Below, piece after piece: positions 19,840-40,608 of a DNA stretch of 64,000 nt (positions are counted from its first letter, which is position 1; each line of letters starts with the position of its first letter). Under the pieces are notes generated by a model. That model saw nothing but the letters and a program-made list of their open reading frames with translations. It ran no database searches and was not told the origin of the DNA. The translations under genes and the position numbers were made by a program. The DNA lies in assembly GCA_902526645.1 (NCBI GenBank), contig CABZLS010000004.1, positions 1 to 64,000 of the forward strand, given 5' to 3'. Origin of the DNA: an uncultured Pelagibacteraceae bacterium. GTDB taxonomy: Bacteria; Pseudomonadota; Alphaproteobacteria; Pelagibacterales; Pelagibacteraceae.

Positions 19840-20277
19840 ATGGCGGAAACAATTGAACAAAGATGCTTATCTAAAGGTGTAAAGTTAACAGAGCAAAGAC
19901 GAATAATTGCTAAGGTAATTTCAGAATCAAAAGAAGCTTATGGAGAATCAGATCATCCAGATGTAGATGAATTGTATATTAGAGTATCAAAAATTGATCC
20001 TAAAATAAGCATAGCGACAGTTTATAGAACTGTAAAACTTTTTGAGGAAGCTGGTATTTTAACAAAGCATGATTTTAAAGGTGGAAAAGCTAGGTATGAA
20101 GCAATGATAGAAAGCCACCACGATCATTTGATTGATATTAAAACAGGTGAAATAATAGAGTTTGTTGATGAGGAAATTGAAAAACTTCAAAAAAGAGTTG
20201 CTGAAAAACATGGCTATAAATTAGTTGACCATAAACTTGAGTTATATGGAGTTAAAATAAACTCTAAAGATGAGTAA
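19840..20277 (+). CDS. fur: Fur-family metalloregulator (Fur/Mur)
   Basis: A 145-residue Fur-family repressor. The winged helix carries KLTEQRRIIAKVI and the recognition helix ISIATVYRTVKLFEEAGIL (about 50-68). The metal-binding loop is ESHHDHLIDIKTGEIIEF (about 90-107). There is no CxxC structural zinc site, as in alphaproteobacterial Fur/Mur, which respond to iron or manganese. It overlaps miaB by eight bases, a conserved fur-miaB arrangement. It may act at the Fur-box-like dyad at 40928 (inference). Confidence 0.93.
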   Translation: MAETIEQRCLSKGVKLTEQRRIIAKVISESKEAYGESDHPDVDELYIRVSKIDPKISIATVYRTVKLFEEAGILTKHDFKGGKARYEAMIESHHDHLIDIKTGEIIEFVDEEIEKLQKRVAEKHGYKLVDHKLELYGVKINSKDE

Positions 20278-32438: not shown

Positions 32439-34673
32439 ATGAGAGTTGCTGTTTTAAGTTTGATTATTTTATTATTTTTATTTAACAGTAATAAAGTTTA
32501 TTCAGGCACAGTTACTATGCCTTCAACTTTAACAACTGATACAACTGATTTTGTTTTATTATCAAGTTCAGGAACAACACCTAGTATTAGTGGTTACACA
32601 GGAACCCTTCTTGTTTCAGCTGTAGCATCGGATGGAAATATAAAGGTAACGTCTGTAACTAATTTAATGCAGGCAGCGGGCTATTGTAATTATACAAGTG
32701 ATAATTCAAGTGTACCTTCTCAGTGTACAGGTAATTCTCTTACAGAAATAGGTTTTAGAGGAACACAAGATGATATCAATAATGCACTTGCAACATTATC
32801 ATTCAAAGGCGATGGTGCTGCTGGATCACCTACAATTACTGTTGCTGTAACTCCAGCAGGTACTAATTATTTTTCAGGCAATGGTCATTATTATCAACTT
32901 GTAACGGGAAATATTAATTGGACCAATGCAAAAACTGCAGCAGAGGCATCAACTTACGAAGGTTTAACAGGTTATCTTGTAACAATTACAAGTGCAGCTG
33001 AAAATAATTTTATTAAAAATAAAATTGCTACCAATACTTGGATTGGTGGATCTGACGATGCAACGCATACATCTAATACCCATCCAGCAATAACTAGTGG
33101 TGGTGCAGGTAATTCTACTCCACATGGACTAGCTGGCGAGGGTACTTGGGAATGGGTTTCTGGACCAGATAATGGAAAAACTTTTCACTGCCAGGAAAAA
33201 ATTGAACCTAAAGCTGATCCTGCTCATCCAGATTGCACGGTAGCATCAGGATATGAATATGTAAATTGGCTAACTAATGAACCTAATGACCATAATAGTG
33301 ATAAAGATGGGCAAGAAAATTGTGCTCATATGTATGGCTCTGGAGACAACAAAGGTAAATGGAATGATTTACCTTGTACTAATACAGTTGGAGCATATGT
33401 AATTGAATATGGTGGAACAGCTGGTGAAAGTGCAACAGTAAGCGGTCAAACAACATTAACAATTAATTCAACTGAAGCTAGCGGTAGTACTTACACCGCG
33501 TTCAATGATAAACAAGTAAGTGGAATGATAAACGCTCAAACAGAATATGCTAAAAGATTTATGTTTAATACTACCAATCAAGTCATGCGTAGAATGGAAC
33601 AGTTTAGAAGAGTTGGAATTAATAAATCAACTCGAATTAAAGATATGAGATTAACTCTTGCCAATGATCAAAATAATTATAATAAACAAATACCAACTGA
33701 ATTATTTGATTATTACATTGATGAATATAAAAATTTATCTGCAAAAAATGTTGATGATTTAATTAGTAAACTTCCATTAACAAAATATTTAAAAGAAAAT
33801 TATAATATGACACCCAAGGATTGGGCATTTTGGACAGCTGGCTCAATTAATAAGGGTAGACTTAATCTTAGTTCAGTTGGTGATTTAGGAATAATAAATA
33901 GAACTGAGAGTTTTATAGTGGGTGCAGATGTTAATTATGATAAAGGTTCTTTATTTGGACTTGCTTTGAGGCATGAAGATGATCAATCTGATATAGGCAT
34001 GAAGGATAGTACTGGATTTTTAGCAAGATCTGATAATTTTTCCATTTATAATACCTGGCAAGGATCTGAAAAAAATTATATTGATTCTTTTTTAGGATTT
34101 GGAAAAACTACTTACGCTACAACACGTATTGTTGACATGTCAAACCCTTCTAATGTTGTAAAAGGTAAATTCAAAGCAAAACAAGTTTTTGGTTCGGTTA
34201 AATATAATTTCAAGAATGTCCATAAAGATTATAAATTTCACAATTATTCCAAGTTTGATTTTGGTTTTGTAAATTTTGATGGATATTCTGAGACAGGTAG
34301 CAGTATTTCAAAGTTAAAATTTGGTAAAAGAGAACTTGAAACATCATCAATTTCTGTAGGATCTGCCATTGAGAAAGAAATATATCTTACCGACTCATTA
34401 TTTATTCCTTATTTTAAGTTAGATTTTAGTAAGGATCTTACAGATGGATCAGATATACAAGCTAACTATGTTGGTAATACCACCAAATATAACACTACTA
34501 TTGATAAAAACTTTAGCTCAATGATAATTTTCGAAACCGGATTTGATTGGTTTTTTGATAATGGGTGGAATATTAAATCTGTTATTAGTAGAACTGATAA
34601 AGATGGCGTAGGACACGAAAATTTATTAGAGTTAAGAGCTGTTAGATCGAGACAAAACTTATATAAAAATTAA
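32439..34673 (+). CDS. Secreted C-type lectin fused to an autotransporter-like beta barrel
   Basis: A signal peptide (about 1-22, ending KVYSG) leads a Ser/Thr/Gly-rich beta region (about 24-145, cadherin-like pattern TLSFKGDGAAGSPTITVAV). A C-type lectin domain spans about 149-325: YYQLVTGNINWTNAKTAAEA, WIGGSDD, WEWVSGP, then EPN (281-283) and WND (308-310). EPN plus WND is the calcium site that in animal lectins favours mannose-type sugars. From about 440 to the end the alternating pattern WAFWTAGSINKGRLN onward resembles an autotransporter barrel, though the last residue is not the usual aromatic. Likely surface exposed; the ligand is unknown. Its stop interlocks with fabI. Confidence 0.8.
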   Translation: MRVAVLSLIILLFLFNSNKVYSGTVTMPSTLTTDTTDFVLLSSSGTTPSISGYTGTLLVSAVASDGNIKVTSVTNLMQAAGYCNYTSDNSSVPSQCTGNSLTEIGFRGTQDDINNALATLSFKGDGAAGSPTITVAVTPAGTNYFSGNGHYYQLVTGNINWTNAKTAAEASTYEGLTGYLVTITSAAENNFIKNKIATNTWIGGSDDATHTSNTHPAITSGGAGNSTPHGLAGEGTWEWVSGPDNGKTFHCQEKIEPKADPAHPDCTVASGYEYVNWLTNEPNDHNSDKDGQENCAHMYGSGDNKGKWNDLPCTNTVGAYVIEYGGTAGESATVSGQTTLTINSTEASGSTYTAFNDKQVSGMINAQTEYAKRFMFNTTNQVMRRMEQFRRVGINKSTRIKDMRLTLANDQNNYNKQIPTELFDYYIDEYKNLSAKNVDDLISKLPLTKYLKENYNMTPKDWAFWTAGSINKGRLNLSSVGDLGIINRTESFIVGADVNYDKGSLFGLALRHEDDQSDIGMKDSTGFLARSDNFSIYNTWQGSEKNYIDSFLGFGKTTYATTRIVDMSNPSNVVKGKFKAKQVFGSVKYNFKNVHKDYKFHNYSKFDFGFVNFDGYSETGSSISKLKFGKRELETSSISVGSAIEKEIYLTDSLFIPYFKLDFSKDLTDGSDIQANYVGNTTKYNTTIDKNFSSMIIFETGFDWFFDNGWNIKSVISRTDKDGVGHENLLELRAVRSRQNLYKN

Positions 34674-35457: not shown

Positions 35458-36669
35458 TTAAACCTTCTCAAAAATTAAAGCAGCATTAGTACCACCAAAA
35501 CCAAAACTATTAGACATTACAGTATTTAAATTTGTTCCTGTTTCAGTTTTTGCAATAATTGGGAATTTTTTAGCCTCTTCATCCATTTCATTTATATTTG
35601 CTGAACCAGCAATAAAATTGTTTTTCATCATTATTAAACAATAAATTGCTTCATGAACAGATGCTGCACCTAATGGATGTCCTGATAACGATTTAGTTGA
35701 ACTTATTTTTGGAATATCATCACCAAAAGTTTTTCTTACAGCATTTAATTCTGTTATATCCCCGACTGGTGTAGATGTTCCATGAGTATTAATATAGTCA
35801 ATTTTATTTTTTGCAGTTGCCATTGCCATTTTCATACACCTAACTGCTCCTTCACCTGAGGGTGCCACCATATCATATCCATCAGAAGTTGCTCCATAAC
35901 CAGTTAATTCTGCATAAATTTTAGCACCCCTGGCTTTTGCATGTTCGTATTCTTCAAGAACTAGAACACCACCACCACCGGCAATCACAAAACCATCCCT
36001 AGTTTTGTCATATGCTCTTGATGCTGTCTCAGGAGTATCATTATATTTAGATGATAAAGCTGTCATAGCATCAAACATTGCAGTCATTGCCCAATGAATT
36101 TCCTCACTTCCACCTGCGAATACTATATCTTGCTTTCCCATTTGAATTAATTCCATCGAATTTCCAATACAATGACCACTTGTTGCACAAGCAGAACTCA
36201 TTGTGTAGTTCGTTCCTTTAATTTTAAATGGAACAGCGAGAGTAGCAGATGCAGTGCTTGCCATCGTTCTTGGAACAATAAATGGACCCATTAATTTTGG
36301 AGTTTTAGCTCTAGTTTTATCTGCAGCTAAAATTACATTCTCAATTGAAGGGCCTCCAGAACCCATTACAATTCCTGTTTTAAAATTGCTCACATCTTTT
36401 TCTTCTAAACCAGAATCTGTTATTGCTTCTTTCATCGCAATATAATTATAAGCTGAGCCTGATCCCATAAATCTAATAGTTTTTCTGTCTATATAATCTT
36501 CAAGTTTAATTTTTGGTTTTCCGTGAACATGACTTTTAAGATTATGCTCCTTATATTCCTCAGAAAAAGATATCCCAGATTTTGAATTAAGTAGTGATTC
36601 ATAAACTTCTGATTGATTATTTCCTAAACAAGAAACAATACCTAATCCTGTTACAACTACTTTTCTCAT
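35458..36669 (-). CDS. fabB: 3-oxoacyl-ACP synthase I (beta-ketoacyl-ACP synthase), FabB
   Basis: FabB condenses malonyl-ACP with acyl-ACP and is needed for unsaturated chains along with FabA. Active-site cysteine lies in [12 protein letters not shown] (about 160-171); the two histidines are in [11 protein letters not shown] and [14 protein letters not shown]. The C-terminal [18 protein letters not shown] is diagnostic. The length of 403 is normal. It overlaps the fabA stop by one base. Confidence 0.97.
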
Positions 36670-37169
36670 TATTTAAATAATCCCACTTTCAAACTGTCTG
36701 CTGAATAAATCTTTTTTCCATCTGCTAAAACAACCCCATTAGCGAGACCCACAGTTGTTCCTCCAGGAGACATAATTTTTTTCATATCAATTTCATATTT
36801 TACTAATTTAGCATTTTGTAAAACTTCCCCAGTAAATTTTACTGTCCCAACGCCTAATGCTCTTCCTTTCCCAGGGTTTCCTATCCAACCTAAATAAAAA
36901 CCAACCAGTTGCCACATGGCATCAAGTCCTAAACAACCAGGCATAACAGGATCCTCTTTGAAATGACAATTAAAAAACCAGAGATCATTTTTTATATCCA
37001 ATTCAGCTTTAAGAGAACCTTTTTTAAATGCACCATTGCTATCATTAATCTCTGTAATTCTATCAAACATTAGCATCGGTGGAAGAGGTAACTTTGCATT
37101 TCCTCTACCAAATAATTGGCCATTTCCACAATTAATAAGTTCATCATATGAGTATGAATTTTTTTTCAT
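36669..37169 (-). CDS. fabA: 3-hydroxydecanoyl-ACP dehydratase/isomerase, FabA
   Basis: FabA introduces the cis double bond of unsaturated fatty acids. The hotdog fold contains [12 protein letters not shown] (about 31-42), the catalytic histidine in [20 protein letters not shown] (about 69-88) and the family aspartate in the same stretch. At 166 residues it is slightly short. It heads fabA-fabB-fabI and diverges from irr, as in other alphaproteobacteria. Its promoter overlaps an ICE-like box. Confidence 0.97.
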
Positions 37170-37209
37170 AAAATAGAATACTCTTATTTACTTGATTTTA
37201 TCTACATAT

Positions 37210-37238
37210 AATATACTTTTAATACTAGATTAGAACAA
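37210..37238 (-). promoter_or_regulatory. Candidate promoter of the fabA-fabB-fabI operon
   Basis: On the minus strand TTGTTC (37233-37238), a 17-base spacer and TATATT (37210-37215) form a good housekeeping-type promoter about 40 bases upstream of the fabA ATG. The -35 hexamer lies inside the ICE-like box at 37229-37245. Confidence 0.55.
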
Positions 37239-37245
37239 TTATAAC
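37229..37245 (+). promoter_or_regulatory. ICE-like box in the fabA/irr intergenic region (site 1)
   Basis: The site reads ATTAGAACAATTATAAC, matching 11 of 14 fixed positions of the Irr iron-control element TTTAGAA-N3-TTCTAAA. It covers the fabA -35 hexamer on one strand and a TATAAC that could be the irr -10 on the other. It shares TTAGAA-N3-TTATAA exactly with site 2 near katG. Confidence 0.5.
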
Positions 37246-37263
37246 TAACAACACATTTAATGT

Positions 37264-37662
37264 ATGAAATATATTGAAAAATTAAGAAATTCTGGCCTTA
37301 GACCCACAAAACAAAGGCTTCAAATATGTGAAGTCTTGTTTGATACTAAACAAACATTTCATTTTACTATTAATGATTTAGCAAAGAAAATAAAAGATCA
37401 ATTAGATAACAGAATATCTTTAGCAACAATTTATAATACAGTTCACGCTTTTGAAAAAAAAGGATATTTAAAGCAAATTCCTATTAACTCTAATCAAACC
37501 TATTTTGACACCAACATCTCAGATCATCATCACTTCTACGATTTAAATGAGGAAAAATTAATTGATTTAGAAAATTCAGATGTGGGACCTATAAATATAA
37601 AAAGAAAAATTAATGGAAAAAAAATTAAATCTGTTGAAGTTCTAGTAAAACTTGAGGATTAA
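37264..37662 (+). CDS. irr: Irr-type Fur-family transcriptional regulator
   Basis: A 132-residue Fur-superfamily protein. The N-terminal LRNSGLRPTKQRLQICEVLF and recognition helix ISLATIYNTVHAFEKKGYL (about 50-68) are typical, and the metal or haem loop DHHHFYDLNEEKLIDLEN (about 91-108) has the histidine triplet of Irr. Irr reports haem/iron status in alphaproteobacteria. The irr | fabA-fabB-fabI arrangement is the ancestral context. Two ICE-like boxes flank the gene, suggesting autoregulation and control of katG. PerR is the less likely alternative. Confidence 0.88.
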   Translation: MKYIEKLRNSGLRPTKQRLQICEVLFDTKQTFHFTINDLAKKIKDQLDNRISLATIYNTVHAFEKKGYLKQIPINSNQTYFDTNISDHHHFYDLNEEKLIDLENSDVGPINIKRKINGKKIKSVEVLVKLED

Positions 37663-37692
37663 TTTTTTGAAGTAAGCGTCATTTTTATACAA

Positions 37693-37719
37693 TTGACACC
37701 TTTTTAGAATCATTATAAA
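37693..37719 (+). promoter_or_regulatory. katG promoter overlapped by ICE-like box (site 2)
   Basis: TTGACA (37693-37698) is followed, after 15 bases, by TATAAA (37714-37719), or after 17 bases by TAAAGT. The ICE-like box TTTAGAATCATTATAAA (37703-37719) covers the -10 and matches 13 of 14 fixed Irr-element positions. A protein bound here would block RNA polymerase. The katG ribosome site AGGAGAT follows at about 37740. Confidence 0.65.
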
Positions 37720-37750
37720 GTAAATATTGCTGAATTAAAAGGAGATATCT

Positions 37751-39988
37751 ATGAGTACTGAAAATTTTAAAAACAAGTCTTTTAAGGCCAATCAAATGAG
37801 TAAATGTCCTTTTACAGGAGTAGGAACGCCAGCAAAGTTTTCTGCAGGAAGAGGTCAAACAGTTAGAGACTTTTGGCCAAATAGTTTAAATCTTAAAATT
37901 CTGAGTCAGCACTCAAATTTATCTAACCCTATGGATAAAAAATTTAGTTATGCAAAAGAATTTAAAAAACTAAATTACAAGGCATTAAAAAGAGATTTAA
38001 AAAAATTAATGACAAATTCCCAAGAATGGTGGCCAGCAGATTATGGTCATTATGGTCCATTATTTATTAGATTAGCTTGGCATGCAGCTGGAACTTACAG
38101 AACTGGTGATGGCAGAGGTGGAGCAGGAACGGGTAATCAGAGATTTGCACCACTTAATTCTTGGCCAGATAACGTTAATTTAGATAAAGCTAGATTACTT
38201 TTATGGCCTATTAAAAAGAAATATGGAAGAAAAATTTCATGGGCAGATTTATTCATACTTGTTGGAAATGTAGCTTTAGACTCTATGGGTTTTAAAACTT
38301 TTGGTTTTGGAGCTGGTAGAACTGATATTTGGGAACCAGAAGATGATATTTATTGGGGCTCAGAAAAAGAAATGTTAGGTGTGGAAAGATATAGTGGAAA
38401 GAGAGATTTAGAACAGCCATTAGGAGCTTCACATATGGGTCTAATATATGTAAATCCACAAGGTCCTGATGCTAATCCTGATCCAAAACTAGCAGCACAT
38501 GACATTAGAGAGACATTTGGAAGAATGGCTATGAATGATTATGAAACAGCGGCATTAGTTGCTGGAGGGCATACGTTTGGAAAATCTCACGGTGCAGCAT
38601 CTGAGTCTTTTAAAGGCCCGGACCCTGAGGCTTCAAGACTTCAAGATCAGTCAACAGGATGGAATAGTGGATATAAATCTGGAAAAGGTGTCGATACAAT
38701 AAGTAGTGGTATTGAGGGTGCTTGGACTCAAAATCCAATTAAATGGGATATGGGTTATTTAGATTGTTTATATGGACATGAATGGGAGCTTACAAAAAGC
38801 CCAGCTGGCGCTCATCAATGGACTCCAAAAAAAAATGGTCAAGAAATTAAAATGGTTCCTGATGCGCATCAAAAAGGTGTATTTCATCCACCAATGATGC
38901 AAACAACAGACATATCAATGAAAGTTGACCCTAACTATGGACCTATCACTAAACATTTTCACCAAAATCCAAAAGAGTTTCATGATGCTTTCGCAAGAGC
39001 TTGGTTTAAATTAACTCATAGGGACATGGGACCAAGAGTTTGCTATCTTGGTAATGAGGTTCCCAAAGAACAATTAATTTGGCAAGATCCAATTGATAAG
39101 CCAAAATATAAACTTAAATCAAAGGATATTAAAGATTTAAAAAGTAAAATCTCTAAATCAAGAATATCAATTTCAGATTTAGTTTCTACTGCATGGGCAT
39201 CAGCATCTACCTTCAGAGGCTCAGATAAAAGAGGTGGTGCTAATGGTGCAAGAATAATGTTGGAACCCCAAAAAAATTGGAAAGTGAACAATCCGAAGAA
39301 ATTATCGAATGTAATTAAAACTTTAGAAAAAATTAAAAGTAAATTTGATAGTAAAAAGAAAAGTGTTTCAATGGCAGACTTAATCGTGTTAGCTGGAGGT
39401 GTTGGTATTGAAATGGCTGCAAAAAAAGCTGGCTATAAAGCTCAGGTTCCATTTTCAGCAGGAAGGGGAGACGCGAGGCAAGATCAGACTGATATAAACT
39501 CGTTTGCTCTTCTTGAGCCACAAGCAGATGGTTTTAGAAATTATCTGAATGGCGGAGCTTCAAATGTCTCTGCAGAGGAAAAACTTATTGATAAGGCTCA
39601 GTTGATGGGTTTAACGGCTCCAGAAATGACCGCACTTTTGGGTGGAATGAGAGTATTAAACACAAACTTTGATGGTTCAAAACATGGTGTTTTTACAAAT
39701 AGACCTGGTTCTCTTACTAACGATTATTTCATAAATCTTTTAGACATGAACACCACTTGGAAAGAAGAGGATAAATCTGAACAAACATTTGTTGGGAAAG
39801 ATAGAAAAACTCAAAAAACTAAATGGAAGGCAACAAGAGTTGACTTAATTTTTGGTTCAAACTCTCAATTAAGAGCTCTTGCTGAGGTTTATGCATGCGA
39901 AGATTCAGGTGACAAATTTGTTAAAGATTTTATCAGGGCGTGGGTAAAAGTTATGAATTCTGATCGATTTGATTTAAAGTTGAACTAA
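37751..39988 (+). CDS. katG: Catalase-peroxidase KatG
   Basis: KatG is a bifunctional haem catalase/peroxidase; its peroxidase fold is duplicated, with the N-terminal half active. The distal site is [11 protein letters not shown] (about 106-116), the proximal haem ligand is in [12 protein letters not shown] (about 275-286), and the Trp-Tyr-Met adduct residues appear in [14 protein letters not shown] and GRMAMND. The length of 745 is full. The gene follows irr through an ICE-like promoter and continues into an AspH-like oxygenase after 23 bases. Confidence 0.98.
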
Positions 39989-40011: not shown

Positions 40012-40608
40012 ATGGGAACAGTCAGTTTTGAGGACTTTTATGAAGTCCCAGGTCTTAGTTTTGATATTTCAAAATTAAGAAAGGATCTTGAAAAAATTTT
40101 AAAATCAAAAAAATTTAACACTCCAGGCGTTACACATTTTGGCGCAATATCAATTAATCAAATTCCAAATGATGATAGTTCTATAAAAGGAAATAATATT
40201 AGAGGAAAATATTGGACTATAGCAGATGAAACTGGAAAAGAAGTACCTCGAGATGTTGAAATAGATGAGTCTAAATATACTCAATTAGTCCCTGAATTTG
40301 AACAAACATACTTTAAAGAAGTTTATGAGTCATTAAGTAAAAGATTCAAGCTTGGAAGAGTAAGATTGTTGTTAAAAGAACCTAGATCAACTTTAAGTTG
40401 GCATAAAGATCCAGAATGTAGACTTCATGTACCCATTATAACTAACAAAGGATGTTCAATGGTGATAGAAAATGTTGCCAAACATCTTCCTGCTGATGGC
40501 AAAGTGTGGATAACAAACAATACAAAATATCATAATTTTTTTAACGGAGGGGAACAAGCAAGAGTTCATTTAGTTGCATGTGTTCTTGATAGTCCTTTTA
40601 AGAAATAA
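40012..40608 (+). CDS. AspH-like 2OG-Fe(II) oxygenase
   Basis: The protein has 198 residues and a double-stranded beta-helix core like the aspartyl/asparaginyl beta-hydroxylase family. The iron site is LSWHKDPECRLHVPI (HxD, about 132-146), the distal histidine is in NNTKYHNFFNGG (about 168-179), and the arginine in EQARVHLV would hold 2-oxoglutarate. The substrate is unknown; peptidyl or free amino acids are possible. It sits 23 bases after katG and directly before the DUF2061 gene, in one apparent operon. Confidence 0.75.
   Translation: MGTVSFEDFYEVPGLSFDISKLRKDLEKILKSKKFNTPGVTHFGAISINQIPNDDSSIKGNNIRGKYWTIADETGKEVPRDVEIDESKYTQLVPEFEQTYFKEVYESLSKRFKLGRVRLLLKEPRSTLSWHKDPECRLHVPIITNKGCSMVIENVAKHLPADGKVWITNNTKYHNFFNGGEQARVHLVACVLDSPFKK

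Follow-up and report, generated by a model that had tools for sequence, protein, structure and literature searches.

The stretch of DNA analysed here, the 64 kb (64,000-nucleotide) window, carries the genes fabB, fabA, irr and katG in that order; the two fab genes are read from the minus strand, irr and katG from the plus strand. The central gene, irr (37264..37662, plus strand), encodes a 132 aa Fur-family regulator of the Irr type (Pfam FUR 6.6e-20; NCBIfam IrrA 126 bits), and katG (37751..39988, plus strand) encodes a catalase-peroxidase HPI (TIGR00198, 1113.7 bits). On the other side of irr are fabA (36669..37169, minus strand), for a 3-hydroxydecanoyl-ACP dehydratase/isomerase (TIGR01749, 258 bits), and fabB (35458..36669, minus strand), for a beta-ketoacyl-ACP synthase I (NF005935, 688 bits), which are adjacent on the same strand and likely form one operon. 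The fabA-irr gap extends over 94 bp and the irr-katG gap over 88 bp. An aspartyl/asparaginyl hydroxylase-like gene (40012-40608) lies immediately 3' of katG and is possibly co-transcribed with it. The window also encodes an autotransporter of 744 aa with a C-type lectin domain (32439-34673); for so streamlined a genome this is a large surface protein.

Each gap contains, at a promoter, a 17-bp palindrome of the type bound by Irr (the ICE or Irr box, TTTAGAA-N3-TTCTAAA). Box 1, ATTAGAACAATTATAAC (37229..37245, plus strand), lies in the fabA-irr gap and matches 11 of the 14 fixed positions; box 2, TTTAGAATCATTATAAA (37703..37719, plus strand), lies between the -35 and -10 elements of katG and matches 13. 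Both share TTAGAA-N3-TTATAA, and their sequences, positions and scores agree with the preliminary description. The inferred katG promoter consists of a -35 TTGACA (37693..37698, plus strand), whose TTGAC columns are each 92-96% conserved among 48 katG gaps after thinning, and, after a 17-nt spacer, a -10 TAAAGT (37716-37721, plus strand), such that box 2 covers the spacer and runs into the -10. For fabA, the inferred -10 is TATATT (37210..37215, minus strand), which as TATAATATA on the plus strand is kept in 38 thinned gaps, and the inferred -35, TTGTTC (37233-37238, minus strand), can be read inside box 1. The further proposal that box 1 covers an irr -10 is plausible, with TATAAC (37240-37245, plus strand) as the candidate, but this lacks a convincing -35. 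Between the fabA -10 and the start codon, at 37189-37198, the sequence TACTTGATTT (fabA strand: AAATCAAGTA) is near-invariant in thinned fabA-irr gaps and constitutes a fabA leader element of unexplained role.

The exact pattern TTAGAANNNTTATAA matches only box 1 and box 2 in the window, and TTAGAANNNTTMTAA matches six times in the whole 1.08 Mb genome, in every case in the TTATAA form. In this genome of 28% G+C the abundance of the box pattern does not exceed chance, with reversed-pattern controls matching equally often or more, and whole-genome motif counting was discarded as evidence because such AT-rich controls match just as often. The placement of the boxes is another matter, since the chance that the 94-bp gap and the 88-bp gap each hold a match is about 1e-7, given four other matches per 1.08 Mb and treating the gaps as chosen beforehand. 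At up to one mismatch most of the other sites in the genome fall within coding genes, whereas restricting the centre to pyrimidine-N-purine (YNR) with no mismatches leaves only the irr and katG sites genome-wide. Across 61 genomes TTTAGAAYNRTTMTAAA gives 53 strand-hits, mostly at the irr locus, compared with about nine for the reversed control. Among the matches in the genome itself, no iron-uptake or haem-synthesis gene carries a convincing box and no genome-wide regulon emerged.

Gaps were taken from 61 relatives and from 80 named Pelagibacterales loci, with some genomes present in both sets. A box matching at least 12 of the 14 positions occurs in 77% of 111 fabA-irr gaps and in 96% of 110 gaps downstream of irr, as against 0.7% and 0.9%, respectively, in dinucleotide shuffles of the same gaps, and boxes in relatives score up to 14/14. 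The search among related SAR11 genomes that had been proposed earlier thus came out strongly in favour of the boxes, and it is this conservation, rather than motif counts alone, that is decisive for regarding them as real and shared across the group. After thinning of near-copies, the box columns of the fabA-irr gap show 85% mean identity compared with 67% outside, with TTTAGAATAATTATAAA at the position of box 1 in the aligned relatives, and in 48 thinned irr-katG gaps the 14 fixed box columns show 95% mean identity against 59% outside, within a fixed promoter layout, aTTGACa....TTTAGAAtnATTATAAa. The right half-site TTATAA doubles as the -10, and part of the box conservation is consequently promoter conservation.

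Conservation differs between the two gaps. In several lineages, namely family f2 and loci such as L020, L030, L031, L140, L152, L193 and L203, the fabA-irr box is weak or missing while the peroxidase box is kept; some of these, for example family f2 and L030, L031 and L193, retain the gene order. Those genomes of the window's genus that lack irr also lack fabA, and this joint absence probably reflects an assembly gap or loss of the block. In one further genome (G025, L100:1416-1598) irr is partly readable at a contig end and carries an internal stop, through either decay or an assembly error, with the two boxes and katG remaining.

Among the SAR11 loci, the gene downstream of irr is katG in 70 and rubrerythrin in 40. 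These two genes were never found together in the 61 genomes, 19 of which carry katG and 29 rubrerythrin (hypergeometric 1.2e-7, a value that ignores kinship and genome incompleteness). On a FabA+FabB tree, which cannot itself polarise the changes, the slot requires 11 changes, at least four of them forced by well-supported branches. Outside SAR11, the comparison covered 30 alphaproteobacterial loci, the best-scoring ones rather than a random draw. In most of them the gene after irr is rubrerythrin; around a dozen have fab genes on the opposite side of irr, and in some the irr-rubrerythrin box reaches 14/14. Elsewhere in the Alphaproteobacteria irr is thus typically paired with rubrerythrin, in many cases together with fabBA and in many cases with the same box; since this arrangement prevails there, it is probably ancestral, with katG as the replacement. 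At the level of sequence, the box persists in both gaps throughout the Pelagibacterales, and the downstream one goes with an enzyme that consumes peroxide, either KatG or rubrerythrin. It has been reported that katG is common to most offshore SAR11 genera (PMC12636525).

Two genomes of family f2 demonstrate that the box is separable from mere synteny. In G038 the irr-katG pair lies away from fabA, and a perfect Irr palindrome stays beside fabA (L092:837-1113), where irr usually lies, in front of a 67-aa ORF with no Pfam or NCBIfam match. In G050 an independent katG gene, about 60% identical, is unlinked to irr and lies beside a tRNA-Pro-like sequence, with the box TTTAGAATCATTATAAT before its start (L127, reverse strand 570-586); it has the look of a gene acquired by horizontal transfer and brought under Irr control, and it rules out the generalisation that katG always adjoins irr. 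In five near-identical f2 genomes an Irr box is common to a 1-Cys-type peroxiredoxin gene and a divergent gene of the metallo-beta-lactamase fold (L089:373-1804). Peroxiredoxin was rejected as a general target, the box being confined to those five genomes, with none in front of the copy carried by a genome from the same genus as the window, and single additional sites before or within other genes in G006, G020, G023, G024 and G046 did not recur and were taken as chance.

The window protein is ranked first by the IrrA (126 bits) and Irr (115 bits) profiles, ahead of PerRA (58) and Fur (41), and it falls below the NCBIfam naming thresholds of 150 for IrrA and 170 for Irr. A family f2 ortholog reaches 151.3 bits, above the IrrA cut-off of 150, and the sub-threshold score can accordingly be read as divergence of the SAR11 branch. 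The HHH cluster (H88-H90) does not vary among 20 SAR11 sequences or among 28 from across the class, the latter having been picked for containing HHH, and the gene neighbourhood is also conserved, fabBA-irr and irr-rubrerythrin occurring in other Alphaproteobacteria. The Cys-Pro haem motif, which is limited to some Irr proteins, is absent from the window Irr, which has a single Cys in the whole protein. The five metal ligands of PerR align with H33, D82, H88, H90 and D101. All five are invariant in SAR11 and in 28/28 Irr sequences from across the class, whereas the genome's other Fur-family protein (window ~19846-20187) has Glu at two of these positions; Asp in PerR as against Glu in Fur matters for peroxide sensitivity. 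These residues would allow metal-based peroxide sensing without demonstrating it, and the Cys-X-X-Cys pattern of the PerR structural Cys4 zinc site is absent from the sequence. By analogy with the family, haem or iron would be the signal of the SAR11 Irr, which would bind the ICE without haem and be released with it. The Irr fold is settled by sequence, and the fold would not separate haem from metal sensing.

The boxes occupy two positions relative to the -35 TTGAC. Some start 20-21 nt before it and stop just short of the -35; the others start 10-12 nt after it and cover the spacer and -10. Paired boxes lie about 31 bp apart, or three helical turns. A spacer box is present in 55/62 katG promoters as against 15/40 rubrerythrin promoters, and an upstream box in 39/40 rubrerythrin promoters as against 30/62 katG promoters, with kinship partly corrected for in both comparisons. 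The two enzymes thus differ in where their boxes lie, and perhaps also in whether Irr represses or activates them. Apo-Irr is known to bind ICE boxes, with repression or activation set by the position of the box (PMC7762939). Iron limitation raised the rubrerythrin transcript SAR11_0399 of Ca. P. ubique HTCC1062 by a factor of 1.57, while irr showed no response to iron (PMC2864753), and we hypothesise that the upstream box position may explain this rise.

We consider it fairly probable that both boxes are operators of the adjacent Irr, which would repress katG and irr when haem is scarce, and repression at katG, taken by itself, is likewise probable. An Irr dimer would bind the palindrome under haem scarcity; at the katG promoter, where it would cover the spacer and -10, RNA polymerase would be blocked and haem spared, and at its own promoter Irr would limit its own synthesis. 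With more haem, or with an oxidised His/Asp site, Irr would be released and katG made. Perhaps fabA is repressed as well, given that its inferred -35 lies under the shared box, and this is the weakest link of the model; the argument for it is the shared gap, and regulation of fabA by Irr appears to us slightly doubtful. We counted in favour of the model the conservation of the boxes and of the katG promoter layout, the presence of a box at the katG unlinked to irr in G050, the mutual exclusion in 61 genomes, the minimum of four slot changes, the boxed irr-rubrerythrin loci outside SAR11, the invariance of HHH, H33, D82 and D101 and the published behaviour of other Irr proteins (PMC3413700, PMC7762939), and against it the score of just 11/14 for box 1 in the window itself, the Irr score below the NCBIfam cut-offs and the share of box conservation that belongs to the promoter. 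The rise of SAR11_0399 also speaks against simple repression by haem-free Irr at that gene, which may or may not adjoin irr in HTCC1062. Because the boxes are conserved, and box 2 probably controls a slot in which the enzyme has been exchanged repeatedly, a single ancient iron/haem regulator, Irr, probably governs the catalase-peroxidase in many SAR11 bacteria. The preliminary description had envisaged one haem/iron sensor controlling three pathways; conservation upholds the operators at irr and katG, and the case is weaker for fabA, with the box weak or missing in several lineages, and for haem or iron as the signal. Rather than a three-pathway sensor, Irr seems to form a local module whose target is the peroxidase that happens to lie downstream, rubrerythrin in many relatives. 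A bolder extension, speculative and in our view improbable, is that in SAR11 a once global iron regulator, Irr, has been reduced to the local control of one exchangeable peroxidase slot, katG or rubrerythrin by lineage, with the operator moving between repressing and activating positions with the enzyme and with peroxide as much as haem as the signal.

Operators and regulator could be the same with control of a different sign at different promoters, Irr repressing katG and activating rubrerythrin, so that at low iron the haem enzyme is turned off and the non-haem enzyme kept. This would be compatible with the preferred reading at katG, and the contrasting distributions of spacer and upstream boxes, the position-dependent action of Irr (PMC7762939) and the HTCC1062 response all point in its direction. 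We nevertheless give it only a minority chance, since a spacer box and an upstream box, some 31 bp from each other, occur together in many katG and many rubrerythrin promoters, as cooperative repression would give, the 1.57-fold change is a small effect and kinship between loci was only partly corrected for. Rather unlikely, too, is that Irr acts mainly as a PerR-like peroxide sensor, in which H2O2 would oxidise the metal at H33/D82/H88/H90/D101 and the repressor would leave katG or rubrerythrin. Its conserved targets would indeed be irr and H2O2-consuming enzymes, including the peroxiredoxin of the five f2 genomes, convincing boxes at iron-uptake or haem-synthesis genes were not found among the own-genome matches, and the five ligands match invariant Irr residues, two of them being Glu in the other Fur protein. 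The same five residues are, however, invariant in all 28 class-wide Irr sequences and are thus not a mark of a change in SAR11, and the structural Cys-X-X-Cys site is missing.

It is very improbable that a different factor, for instance the second Fur-family protein, owns the boxes: a Fur-type protein is present in the same genome, but the boxes have the pattern of the known Irr element rather than a GATAAT-type Fur box, and they travel with irr, also outside SAR11, where irr-rubrerythrin loci score up to 14/14. Least credible of all are chance AT-rich matches that include a -10 TATAA. The genome pattern counts, which do not exceed the reversed controls, would agree with this, but it conflicts with cross-genome conservation at fixed positions, which extends to the TTTAGAA half, a part for which a -10 does not account, and with the upstream boxes of rubrerythrin, which do not lie on a -10.

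In surface seawater SAR11 bacteria are among the most abundant, and some isolates appear to depend on neighbours for the removal of peroxide. In the literature examined we found no account of the regulation of SAR11 katG. A 2006 computational regulon study by Rodionov et al. reportedly covered P. ubique, and some of these sites could have been predicted earlier. The katG gene of offshore SAR11 now gains a candidate regulator and a candidate operator, at a locus where the enzyme was exchanged repeatedly while the regulator and box stayed, and it becomes testable whether a SAR11 cell makes its own catalase or not according to its iron or haem status.

Among known systems, PerR regulons resemble the SAR11 locus in having a catalase-type enzyme or rubrerythrin, together with the regulator itself, as targets, and the five metal ligands align with those of Bacillus subtilis PerR; the operator differs, the Cys-X-X-Cys zinc site is lacking and the best profile is that of Irr, not PerR. 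The Irr protein of Bradyrhizobium japonicum, which undergoes haem-triggered degradation, shares the HHH haem/iron cluster, but the window protein lacks its Cys-Pro haem regulatory motif (PMC4700492) and degradation via that motif is therefore not expected. The closest counterpart is the Irr/ICE regulon of Rhizobiales and Rhodobacter, with its Fur-family HHH protein, its operator TTTAGAA-N3-TTCTAAA and its targets, which include rubrerythrin-like and peroxide-defence genes (PMC3413700), and the SAR11 system is Irr/ICE in a variant form. It differs in that no wide iron regulon was found here and in the right half-site, which is mostly TTATAA as a result of its merging with the -10. The boxes bound by Irr in R. 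sphaeroides lie at two genes assigned to peroxide defence, mbfA and ccpA, whereas katE, which encodes a catalase, lacks a box and is left unbound (PMC3413700); in SAR11, by contrast, the predicted direct target is katG, in the slot held elsewhere by rubrerythrin.
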